From assembly GCF_002931055.1 (NCBI RefSeq), contig NZ_PSXX01000012.1, positions 62,001-126,000 of the forward strand: 64,000 bases of DNA, given 5' to 3'. The translations under genes were made by a program, and so were the position numbers. Origin of the DNA: Pseudoclavibacter sp. AY1H1 (GTDB lineage: Bacteria; Actinomycetota; Actinomycetes; Actinomycetales; Microbacteriaceae). Of the stretch, positions 24,761-28,522 are shown piece after piece. Position 1 is the stretch's first letter, and every line of letters starts with the position of its first letter. The notes beneath the pieces are model-generated. The model saw nothing but the letters and a program-made list of their open reading frames with translations. It searched no databases and was not told the DNA's origin.

Positions 24761-24871
24761 TCTTGGTCGTTGGTGTCCGACGCGAGGAGCCCCGCGCTTC
24801 GCGATGACGCCAGACGACCGCGACGAGAACCACCCTCCGTGCAGCAACCGGCAACGCGAAAGAAGAAATCT

Positions 24872-27421
24872 GTGACCGAAGCGACAGGCGCTGAGCCCCA
24901 GGAATACGACTTCAAGGCTCTCGAAGCGAAGTGGTCGGCTGAGTGGGACAAGCTGCAGCCCTTCGCGACGAACCTCCAGGGTGACGATCGCCCGCGCAAG
25001 TACGTCCTCGACATGTTCCCGTACCCGTCGGGCGACCTGCACATGGGGCACGCCGAGCAGTACGCACTCGGCGACGCCGTCGCTCGCTACTGGCGCCACC
25101 AGGGCTTCAACGTCCTGCACCCCATCGGCTGGGACTCCTTCGGGCTGCCGGCAGAGAACGCCGCCATCAAGAACGGTGGCGACCCCAAGGACTGGACGTA
25201 CGAGAACATCGCGCAGCAGCGCGCGTCGATGAAGCGCTACGCGGCGTCCTTCGACTGGGACCGCGTCATCCACACCTCCGACCCCGAGTACTACCGCTGG
25301 AACCAGTGGCTGTTCCTGCAGATGTACGAGCGAGGTCTCGCGTACCGCAAGTACTCCGACGTGAACTGGTGCCCCAACGACCAGACGGTGCTCGCCAACG
25401 AGCAGGTCATCGACGGGCACTGCGAGCGCTGCGACGCGATCGTCGTGAAGAAGAAGCTCAACCAGTGGTACTTCAAGATCACCGACTACGCAGACCGGCT
25501 CATCGACGACCTCAACCAGCTCGAGGGGCACTGGCCGCAGAAGGTCATCACGATGCAGCGCAACTGGATCGGGCGCTCGCTCGGCGCTGACGTCGACTTC
25601 GTCGTCGAGGGGCGGGATGAGCCCGTCACGGTCTTCACGACGCGCCCCGACACGCTGTACGGCGCCACGTTCATGGTCGTGGCCCCCGATTCTGACCTCG
25701 CGTCCGAGCTCGCCGAAGGCGCAGACGACGAGGTTCGCGAGCGCTTCGCGAAGTACCTCGCCGACACCCGCGCGCTCGACTCCATCGACCGCCAGTCGAG
25801 CGACCGCCCCAAGACCGGCGTCGACCTCGGTCGCTTCGCCATCAACCCCCTGAGCGGCGAGCGCCTGCCCATCTGGGCCGCCGACTACGTGCTCGCCGAC
25901 TACGGCACGGGCGCGATCATGGCGGTGCCCGCACACGACCAGCGCGACCTCGACTTCGCACGCGCGTTCGACCTGCCCGTCAAGGTGGTCGTCGACGTCA
26001 CGCAGGCCGTCACGGGTGTCATCCCGATCATCCCCGAAGACGGGTCGATGCCGGAGTTCGAAGACCTCCACCCCGCCAAGACCGGGGAGGCGCTGTCCGG
26101 CGACGGACGCCTCACCAACTCGGGACCGCTGGACGGGCTCTCGAAGCGCTCGGGCATCCAGGCTGCCATCGAGCTCCTCGACGAGCGTGGCACGGGCCGG
26201 GCCGCGAAGAACTACCGACTCCGCGACTGGCTCATCTCCCGCCAGCGCTACTGGGGAACGCCCATCCCGATCCTCCACGGCGAGGACGGCAAGGAGGTTC
26301 CCGTGCCGCTGGACCAGCTGCCCGTGCGCCTCCCCGAGGCCGAAGGGCTCGACCTGCGCCCGAAGGGAGCCTCGCCCCTCGGCGGCGCGACCGACTGGGT
26401 GAACACGGTCGACCCGGAGACGGGCGAGCCGATGCTGCGCGACACCGACACGATGGACACGTTCGTCGACAGCTCCTGGTACTTCCTCCGCTTCCTCTCG
26501 CCGAACAACGAGCTCGCCGCGTTCGACGAGAAGACGGCCGCGAGCTGGGCGCCCGTCGACCAGTACGTGGGCGGCGTCGAGCACGCCATCCTGCACCTCC
26601 TCTACGCGCGCTTCATCACGAAGGTGCTCTACGACCTCGGGCACGTCGACTTCACGGAACCCTTCTCGGCACTGCTCAACCAGGGCATGGTCGTCATGGA
26701 CGGCAAGAAGATGTCGAAGTCCAAGGGCAACGTCGTGAGCCTCTCGGCCGAGCTCGACCAGTACGGCGTCGACGCCGTGCGCCTGACGATGCTCTTCGCG
26801 AGCCCGCCGGAAGACGACGTCGACTGGGCGGATGTCTCCGTCGCAGGCTCCGGCAAGTTCCTGGCGCGCGCCTGGCGCATCTCCGGCGAGGTCACGAGCC
26901 CCGTCGGCGTCGACTTCGGCGAGGGCGACCGTGGTCTGCGCCGCGAGACGCACCGCTTCCTCGCCGACATCCCGCAGCTGGCCTCCGGCTTCAAGTTCAA
27001 CGTCGTGATCGCGCGCCTCATGGAGCTCACCAACGCGACGCGCAAGGCCATCGACTCGGGTGCTGGCCCGGCTGACCCCGCCGTGCGCGAGGCCGCCGAG
27101 GCCATCGCGGTTGTGCTGGACATGTACGCGCCGCACGCGGCCGAGGACATGTGGGAGCGACTCGGCCACGAGGGCAGCATCTCGCACGTCAAGTGGCCGA
27201 CCGCGGCTCGCTCGCTGCTCACGCAGGACCAGGTGACGGCGGTCGTCCAGATCAACGGCAAGGTGCGGCACCGCCTCGATGTGCCCCCGACGATCGACGA
27301 GGCGTCGCTCGAGCAGCTCGCCATCTCTTCGCCGAAGGTGCAGGCCGCCATCGACGGCCGCGAGATCGTCAAGATCATCGTGCGGGCCCCGAAGCTCGTG
27401 AACATCGCGGTCAAGGGCTAG
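24872..27421 (+). CDS. leuS: Leucyl-tRNA synthetase
   Basis: 849 aa class I synthetase that charges tRNA-Leu, with an editing domain. The HIGH-type motif is HMGH at 57-60 ([16 protein letters not shown]), and KMSKS is at 613-617. The editing domain is recognised by [16 protein letters not shown] chose GTG 24872, which gives the normal N-terminus [12 protein letters not shown] within 20 residues; an upstream GTG (24770) adds 34 low-complexity residues and is less likely. A perfect hairpin terminator follows 32 bp after the stop. Confidence 0.96.
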
Positions 27422-27452
27422 CAGCAGCCAGTCGCCCAAAGCCTGGCGCCAG

Positions 27453-27484
27453 ACGCGCCCCCGCTCAGCCGAGCGAGGGCGCGT
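27453..27484 (+). terminator. leuS terminator
   Basis: Stem ACGCGCCC-c-CGCTC / GAGCG-a-GGGCGCGT with a 4-nt loop, then TTT. It is well placed after the leuS stop. Confidence 0.85.
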
Positions 27485-27520
27485 TTGCGTCTGCGCGTTT
27501 ACCGGTCTACCGCCTTCTCG

Positions 27521-27610
27521 CGGTGGCTTTCCTCGCAGGCGCTTTCCTCGAGGTGGCTTTGCTCGAGGTGGCTTTGCTCGCGGTGGCTTCGCTCGAGGTG
27601 GCTTCTTTCC
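27521..27610. repeat. Six imperfect 15-bp tandem repeats
   Basis: Six units of the type AGGTGGCTTTGCTCG lie head to tail (27521, 27536, 27551, 27566, 27581, 27596), two of them identical. On the - strand one frame reads as pentapeptides of the KATSS/KATSR/KATAR type ending in RRR and a stop at 27507, similar in composition to the basic tails of actinobacterial HU or H1-like proteins. No convincing gene body lies in front, so it may be a gene remnant or plain repeat DNA. Confidence 0.8.
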
Positions 27611-27630
27611 TCTGATCGGCTTCTTCTCCC

Positions 27631-27700
27631 GTTTCGGGATGGCTTTCGCACTTCGGGATGGGTTGCAACCCATCCCGAAGTGCGAAAGCCATCCCGAAAC
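27631..27700. repeat. Perfect 70-bp palindrome
   Basis: The 35 bases 27631-27665 are exactly the reverse complement of 27666-27700, with no loop (centre TTG|CAA). Each arm also contains the direct repeat TTCGGGATGG twice. The same 21 codons are therefore open on both strands, which explains mirror-image frames here. It lies between the leuS terminator and the comEA promoter. The remainder of 27422-27850 shows no gene. Confidence 0.95.
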
Positions 27701-27850
27701 TTGCGATCGACGGCTTCCGCAGCGTGGTCGGTTGAATGGCGTCGGGCGCTCGCGGCCCACTCTGCAGTCACCTGCCCTGTGCGAGAGTCGCCCTCCACAG
27801 GAGGGGACTTCGCGGGCCAGCGGATGCGCGCGCCGTCGTAGCGTCCGAGG

Positions 27851-28522
27851 GTGTCCGAATCCGAGCTGGCCGACCTCTTCGAGCGTCCGCCCCGACCGCG
27901 TCTGCGGATCGGGGTCGGCGCTGCGGTCGTGCTTGTCCTCGTCGTGCTCGCCGGGGCGATCACGCTCGCGGCTCTGCGTCCCACACCGAGTCTCGGTGCC
28001 CTCGGGGAGGTGTCGCCGACCGAGAGCCTCCAGCTGAGCGCAACGGAACCGCCTGCCGGCGTACCGAGCTCCGAGGGGTCGACGCTGCTGGTCCACGTCG
28101 TCGGGGCCGTCACGAGTCCCGGGGTCTACGAGGTGCCGTCGACGGCCAGGGTGGTCGACGGGATCGCCGCGGCGGGTGGTCTTGCCGACGACGCCGACCC
28201 GTCGCTCCTCAACATGGCTCGAACGCTCGTCGACGGCGAGCAGCTGCGGGTTCCGCGGATCGGCGAGGCCCCCTCCGAGCCCGTCGGAGGGGAAGCGGCG
28301 CCGGCCGGTGCCGGGGGTGCGGCCGGCGGTGGCCTCGTGAACCTGAACACGGCGTCTGCGGTCGAGCTCGAAGAGCTGCCGAGGATCGGACCGGCCATGT
28401 CGTCGCGCATCATCGACCACCGTGAGCAGAACGGCGGATTCGGTGCTGTGGAGGAGCTCAAGGAGGTCGCCGGCATCGGGGACGCCACCTACGAGGGGCT
28501 CGTCGACCTGGTGACCGTGTGA
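27851..28522 (+). CDS. comEA: ComEA-type DNA-binding protein of the DNA uptake apparatus
   Basis: 223 aa. A short cytoplasmic start, one membrane helix (about 22-42, VGAAVVLVLVVLAGAITLAA), a linker, an SLBB domain (about 78-135, HVVGAVTSPGVYEVPSTARV) and a C-terminal helix-hairpin-helix DNA-binding domain (NLNTASAVELEELPRIGPAM...GGFGAVEELKEVAGIG). It binds incoming double-stranded DNA at the cell surface. The GTG start has TAGCGT 6 nt upstream (27839-27844), consistent with a leaderless transcript. The stop overlaps comEC by GTGA. Confidence 0.93.
   Translation: MSESELADLFERPPRPRLRIGVGAAVVLVLVVLAGAITLAALRPTPSLGALGEVSPTESLQLSATEPPAGVPSSEGSTLLVHVVGAVTSPGVYEVPSTARVVDGIAAAGGLADDADPSLLNMARTLVDGEQLRVPRIGEAPSEPVGGEAAPAGAGGAAGGGLVNLNTASAVELEELPRIGPAMSSRIIDHREQNGGFGAVEELKEVAGIGDATYEGLVDLVTV

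Follow-up and report, generated by a model that had tools for sequence, protein, structure and literature searches.

The window analysed here is a 64,000-nucleotide stretch of the genome of Pseudoclavibacter sp. AY1H1. Within it, the leucine--tRNA ligase gene leuS (24770..27421, plus strand; TIGR00396) is followed on the same strand by a comEA-like gene (27851..28522; TIGR01259 with an E-value of 1.5e-24, under the curated cut-off). The co-directional gap between these neighbours holds a perfect palindrome of 70 bp at 27631..27700, about 210 bases 3′ of leuS and about 150 bases 5′ of the comEA-like gene. Its two 35-nt arms (27631..27665 on the plus strand and 27666..27700 on the minus strand) are 100% complementary, meet without a loop and are centred between TTG and CAA, exactly as the initial annotation had described. 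For a sequence of 64 kb with the GC content of the window, 68.3%, about 4e-15 perfect palindromes of 35 pairs are expected by chance.

Each arm carries the same motif twice, another early reading that could be assigned to coordinates in both arms. On the left, TTCGGGATGG forms an outer half-site (27633..27642, plus strand) and an inner half-site (27652..27661, plus strand), and its complement occurs twice on the right, as the inner (27670..27679, minus strand) and the outer half-site (27689..27698, minus strand). In the family to which this palindrome belongs, the outer half-site takes the form TCGGGATGG and the inner one TSSGGATGG, and the columns of both are nearly invariant. A variable linker in the left arm (27645..27654, plus strand; element positions 15–24) covaries across the family with its counterpart in the right arm (27677..27686, minus strand; element positions 47–56). 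A typical element also contains four GGATG/CATCC words, at element positions 8–12 and 27–31 and at their mirror images; GGATG/CATCC is recognised by some type IIS restriction systems.

The palindrome is predicted to be very stable when folded, both as single-stranded DNA (−44.8 kcal/mol, z −16) and within the RNA of 27420–27860 (z −8.0). It does not show the GC-rich hairpin with following U-tract of an intrinsic terminator, and neither a U-tract terminator-like site nor a sigma-70 promoter-like site occurs in 27300–28000, which agrees with the earlier remark that terminator features are lacking. That leuS has a hairpin of its own also held: at 27450..27487 (plus strand), about 143 bases ahead of the palindrome, two 17-nt arms of 88% complementarity enclose a 4-nt loop, and this is probably the 3′ hairpin of leuS. 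Rfam gave five matches up to an E-value of 1. Four of them are to microRNA precursor families and the fifth is to a Burkholderia sRNA, and each falls far short of its gathering score; the best, to a microRNA precursor family, reached 38.2 bits where the gathering score is 100. Just upstream of the palindrome, 27517–27604 consists of 5.9 copies of a 15-bp tandem repeat, CTCGAGGTGGCTTTG, whose unit resembles the palindrome arm (TTCGGGATGGCTTTC); the two relatives G002 and G005 appear different in sequence at this place.

A family of fixed length in one genus

The palindrome had been suggested to be a dispersed repeat, and a genome-wide search had been proposed in which a single occurrence of the arm would count against this. 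That case did not arise, and many further copies were found. A profile search of fetched stretches yielded 56 copies at 26 sites in the host genome (G000), and a BLAST search of the palindrome against the same genome gave 108 matches, that is 54 places with both strands counted. Fetched stretches of five genomes, those of the host and four sister species, contain 205 copies: 56 in G000, 51 in G001, 42 in G002 and 28 each in G005 and G007. The geometry is fixed, with 197 of the 205 copies being full length, ungapped and equipped with four GGATGG half-sites; the other 8, which are partial or gapped, did not enter the column counts. Thirteen of the 205 (8 in G001, 5 in G005) score better as a second palindrome type discussed below. 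They were kept in the column, pairing and context counts, and dropping them leaves no locus without a type-1 copy.

The near-invariant columns of both arms read TC..GATGG on the outer side and GATGG further in, the commonest end columns are G-T-Y-T and A-R-A-C, and the 10-nt flanks of 52 copies share no tag. Among the 197 full-length copies, the one in the window alone has all 35 positions paired; the others among 52 aligned host copies pair at 22–33, bar one that is broken by Ns.

How widely is this family distributed? A scan of 60 genomes, the host included, found it in five, all of one genus; five more members of this genus in the scan lacked it. A profile built from 46 copies, one per site, matched 3 of 199 genomes of the taxonomic family, all Pseudoclavibacter. 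Among named genomes, a degenerate pattern matched 34 stretches, all in four Pseudoclavibacter (P. helvolus, P. terrae, AY1F1 and RFBB5), which is an undercount because the pattern recognises 23 of 52 own copies. The profile detected no further copy in 20 stretches of 20 kb of G002 without a known site (E 0.05), and the 20 stretches searched in G003 had no copy either. An origin from phages or plasmids was rejected, since plasmids and phages gave no match and neither did viral contigs, searched with a pattern that recognises 31 of 52 own copies.

Among known repeats, the closest setting is that of REP sequences. According to PMC3733652 these are palindromes of 20–40 bp tagged GTAG or CGTC, the GTAG class being tied to RAYT genes, and they lie predominantly between co-directional and convergent genes; a looser, tool-based sense of REP, used in PMC12306157, admits 10–71 nt in E. 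coli. The present elements resemble REP and BIME sequences in being short extragenic palindromes with many copies and local arrays, here of 2–7 copies, and in their setting, as 129 of 134 element gaps are convergent or co-directional. They differ in their length of 70 bp, loopless and ungapped in 197 of 205 copies, and in having no GTAG or CGTC at their ends. In addition, a RAYT-type (Y1_Tnp) gene was found in 0 of 10 genomes of the genus by a search that detected one in 5 of 14 control genomes. Length, tag and gene together rule out a REP with RAYT. ERIC, according to PMC2267715, is an intergenic palindrome of 127 bp predicted to form a single long stem-loop. The family shares this intergenic, palindromic character and is REP/ERIC-like in setting, and it is set apart by length, the enterobacterial ERIC measuring 127 bp and the present element 70 bp with four internal half-sites. 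We file the family as intergenic palindromic repeats outside REP and ERIC, the comparison with ERIC being one of length only. Open-access literature on Microbacteriaceae and Pseudoclavibacter palindromes and on bacterial palindromic repeats held no title on this palindrome family among the matches listed, and no paper there matched actinobacterial RAYT.

Shared sites and the evolution of the arms

Clustering by flanking sequence resolved 48 sites, of which 5 occur in five genomes, 7 in four, 20 in three, 7 in two and 9 in one, so that 39 of 48 are common to at least two species. In 10 of 10 genome pairs, orthologous copies resemble each other more closely than copies at different sites do (0–29 of 2000 permutations as high). 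At single-copy loci, the identity of the element is 84.8% compared to 61.4% and 63.5% for its 70-nt flanks, in 99 ortholog pairs that are mutually non-independent and with flank identities taken from a generous alignment whose unrelated baseline is 51%.

The site behind leuS illustrates this history. Its arms contain CGCAC/GTGCG in the window, CTCAC/GTGAG in G002 and CTCGC/GCGAG in G001 and G005. In G007 the element is missing and replaced by TTTCGAGAC, which looks like two element ends joined; TTCGAG, similar to this remnant, is found in another vacant gap of the same genome. Four of the five species with the family hence have an element at this site, which contradicts the recent origin that the initial annotation had offered as one option; together with the other shared sites, this occupancy also rules out a recent insertion. 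An assembly artefact is unlikely, since the G002 assembly has a perfect palindrome of 64 bp at the same place, with a compensatory difference in both arms. The other option, retention through selection, is supported by the shared sites, by the identity of elements relative to their flanks and by the covariation of the arms. Taken as a whole, the family is an old dispersed repeat that is inherited vertically and under constraint. The element has been lost from several gaps, and it is therefore locally dispensable.

What replaces a lost element? We inspected eight gaps in which a sister genome has the type-1 palindrome described so far and the clustering showed none, four in G005 and four in G007. 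In G005, three of the four hold another palindrome, which shares the outer TCGGGATGG and has a new interior; in one of the three it stands alongside a degraded type 1, and the fourth gap shows no palindrome; all four in G007 were without a palindrome in the 300–330 bases viewed. The consensus of this type 2 has 67 matches in G005 and 60 in G001 with both strands counted, or some 30 copies per genome, with at least one type-1 copy (G001:C1:199533) among the weak matches. G000, G002 and G007 have 1–2 type-2 copies each, and the other five genomes of the genus have none. In the fetched stretches, types 1 and 2 often alternate about 100–180 bp apart in several arrays common to G001 and G005; in arrays such as L195:2501-3314, L157:2352-2928 and L190:2357-2824 the interval is about 110–150 bp.

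The two arms do not evolve independently. For 46 sequences, one per site, the covariation score is 0.166 compared to 0.115 ± 0.007 in shuffles (0 of 500 as high), and at positions 15–24 it is 0.371 compared to 0.191 ± 0.016, with slid controls at 0.060–0.122; these shuffles ignore kinship, which can inflate the signal. Measures of the whole structure are less striking, 62 of 500 shuffles being as high for two-sided changes and 51 of 500 for further pair types. With one random copy per site cluster, covariation is found mainly at positions 15–24 and 26–29. Pairing is near chance at positions 3, 13, 25 and 32, where G/C or T/C alternate; a perfect hairpin is therefore not required, and uniform selection for a hairpin is ruled out. 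From the covariation pattern by position it follows that the sequence itself is conserved in the half-sites and that pairing accounts at least in part for the conservation of the linker. Among ortholog pairs, the linker (16–24) shows 63 paired double changes vs 168 one-sided breaks, and positions 4–12 show 8 vs 64. The linkers also bear a mark of lineage: CTCATCT and CTCACTT are prominent in G002 and G007, CTCGCTT in G001 and G005, CACGCCT and CGCGCTT in G000, and CACGCTT is common in most of the genomes.

Is it the RNA whose pairing is conserved? On the transcribed strand of co-directional sites there are 86 G.T vs 73 A.C mismatches (p 0.34), and 21 vs 21 in the linker alone; convergent sites have 170 vs 281, with an orientation that is arbitrary there. 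As G.T does not exceed A.C at co-directional sites, there is no sign of selection on RNA pairing through a G.U excess.

Placement at gene ends and possible roles

With gene calls made in this analysis by a trained gene finder, the 134 gaps that hold an element comprise 83 convergent, 46 co-directional and 5 divergent ones, as opposed to 16, 80 and 61 among the other gaps of at least 100 bp in the same stretches. Counted by site cluster, the placement is 27 convergent, 16 co-directional and 1 divergent, with 3 ties and 1 unplaced. The background of a 400-kb sample of G002 is 24, 84 and 45, and the convergent excess of the clusters over this sample has a Fisher p of 9e-9. A further 11 copies at 8 loci overlap predicted genes and stand outside the gap counts; five of these 8 loci are one site cluster.

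What, then, could explain a palindrome that is dispersed, of fixed length, shared between species at its sites, slower to change than its flanks, correlated in its mid-arm changes and placed at 3′ ends? We consider a two-way boundary at gene 3′ ends the likeliest role, with a probability of roughly 0.45. A mostly intergenic, clade-specific family of 70 bp would already have existed in the common ancestor of the five Pseudoclavibacter species, probably after a first spread as a short mobile element; its copies would since have been inherited in place under purifying selection and would be largely immobile today. The element is its own reverse complement and the same from either side, and therefore both convergent transcripts, or the DNA between them, would meet the same structure. 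In this way it may serve as a two-way boundary for transcription units. Recognition could take place in trans via the four GGATGG half-sites, and the boundary might consist either of a DNA insulator to which a protein binds or of an RNA hairpin that is recognised at the 3′ end.

The pairing of the arms may have been retained because the hairpin itself matters or because template switching during replication copies one arm onto the other. Template switching is reported to create and maintain RNA hairpins (PMC8794818), and it could be a source of paired changes without selection on pairing; on its own it leaves the faster change of the flanks and the uncorrected positions unexplained. Some observations also speak against the boundary itself: there is no G.T excess, some positions pair near chance, even the linker has more one-sided breaks than paired double changes, the genes ahead of elements have hairpins of their own as frequently as elsewhere, several gaps have been emptied, and the window's own copy is flanked by co-directional genes.

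A rather unlikely alternative is that the family is what remains of a miniature inverted-repeat element, with its two terminal repeats of 35 bp set back to back; the element would have spread in the distant past or would still be spreading with some transposase. As promoters and genes exclude insertion, 3′ ends would be where its copies are tolerated, and the similarity of the copies would stem from recombination among them. Such an origin fits elements that are dispersed, mostly intergenic and palindromic, that avoid divergent gaps and that form local arrays, and like a MITE they are non-coding, with inverted terminal repeats and no coding sequence. It also fits the lineage-specific linkers, such as CTCATCT in G002 and G007, the outer TCGGGATGG common to two types with different insides, and the copy numbers of type 2, about 30 each in G001 and G005 vs 1–2 in the other three species, which imply amplification or differential loss. 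Against the relic stand the shared sites with their vertical inheritance and the copies that are intact where the flanks are scrambled; constraint after insertion also sets them apart from MITEs. A convincing target-site duplication is absent as well: the HU gap, compared between G002 and G007 and the sole cleanly comparable vacant gap, permits at most 2 bp, which can be explained otherwise. Y1_Tnp, the sole transposase family covered, provides no parent in 10 genomes of the genus. This absence also weighs against the mobile-element terminus proposed at the outset, as do the BLAST matches, nearly all of which are whole or near-whole elements, with few partial ones that lie mostly in arrays.

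An ordinary bidirectional hairpin at mRNA 3′ ends, acting as terminator or exonuclease barrier for convergent genes without a dedicated recognition protein, appears quite improbable. It would account for the convergent placement, the very stable fold and the fact that type 2 stays palindromic with a different inner sequence. U-tract hairpins, rare throughout, are somewhat rarer at convergent ends that face an element (9/147) than at those without one (7/50); at co-directional ends they are not rarer (7/37 facing an element vs 8/80 without). Plain hairpins are as frequent ahead of elements as elsewhere, genes there having hairpins of their own at a fraction of 0.54 vs 0.47–0.58 for other genes and 0.35 in a coding control (at least 70 nt free). 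The copy in the window has no U-tract, no G.U excess is seen, and pairing alone leaves the invariant half-sites unexplained. A plain intrinsic terminator is likewise not favoured, given the missing U-tract at the window copy and the unremarkable hairpin frequencies ahead of elements.

Chromosome-organising sites bound by a dedicated protein, like those of Noc or SlmA, are a very improbable explanation, suggested by tens of sites with four half-sites each and by their uneven density, and opposed by the strict 3′-end placement, which would not be expected of them, and by the failure to find a candidate protein. In G002, 4 of 35 sites lie on contig C1 (1.47 Mb) and 10 of 35 on C5 (0.43 Mb), with p-values of 7e-4 and 5e-3 for unordered contigs that were picked after the counts were seen. 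In G001, the one genome in which the surroundings of dnaA were counted, 8 of 32 sites fall within about 160 kb of that gene (around G001:C5 298583), where 2.6 are expected. Noc and SlmA sites are likewise sequence-specific and scattered round the chromosome. They are much shorter and are not known to be tied to gene 3′ ends. A dif-site pattern had no match in 7 genomes.

A possible turnover of palindromes at gene ends

The type-1 family is not the only palindrome of its kind in the genus. In 400 kb of G003, one tenth of the genome of a relative without type 1, we found two other palindrome families, A and B (stretches L246, L248, L253, L257, L259, L261 and L262). Each is present in six copies, and of the twelve palindromes one is degraded. 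They have arms of 26–34 bp and loops of 1–3 bases, and measure 53–69 bp in a de novo scan. Ten of these palindromes could be placed, 6 in convergent, 4 in co-directional and 0 in divergent gaps, against a background of 19, 85 and 32. Family B (TTCCGGGTGGTTTTCGGGGTTCCGGGT) has its motif twice per arm, as in type 1, and the likeness of the G003 families to type 1 is a lead on homology.

The palindromes thus vary by lineage: five species have type 1, G001 and G005 among them also have many copies of type 2, perhaps by amplification, and G003 has families A and B. This might hint at something broader, which we judge distinctly unlikely: that intergenic palindromes with little or no loop are a standing part of Pseudoclavibacter gene ends, with the palindrome and its place being kept and the sequence turning over by lineage. 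Copying of one arm onto the other by template switching would then drive the change, a recognition protein would follow it by co-evolution, gaps would be able to switch palindrome type, and convergent genes in general would be served by a two-way boundary system.

Bacterial palindromic repeats are often seen as selfish debris with incidental roles. Here, a family without a recognised mobiliser is locked in length, shared in position across species and slower to change than the adjoining DNA. Whether the host benefits from intergenic palindromes thereby becomes directly testable, as shared sites can be deleted in a culturable actinobacterium, and the family provides a natural series for telling selection on the hairpin from mutational correction of the arms.

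Finally, G001, G002 and G007 contain what appears to be a further hairpin family, GCTGCC...GGCAGC, with arms of 27–32 bp and a loop of 3–8 bases, at L093:2206-2265, L098:3427-3487, L127:2800-2865, L132:3435-3496, L176:3399-3458, L272:945-1006 and L282:11347-11415.
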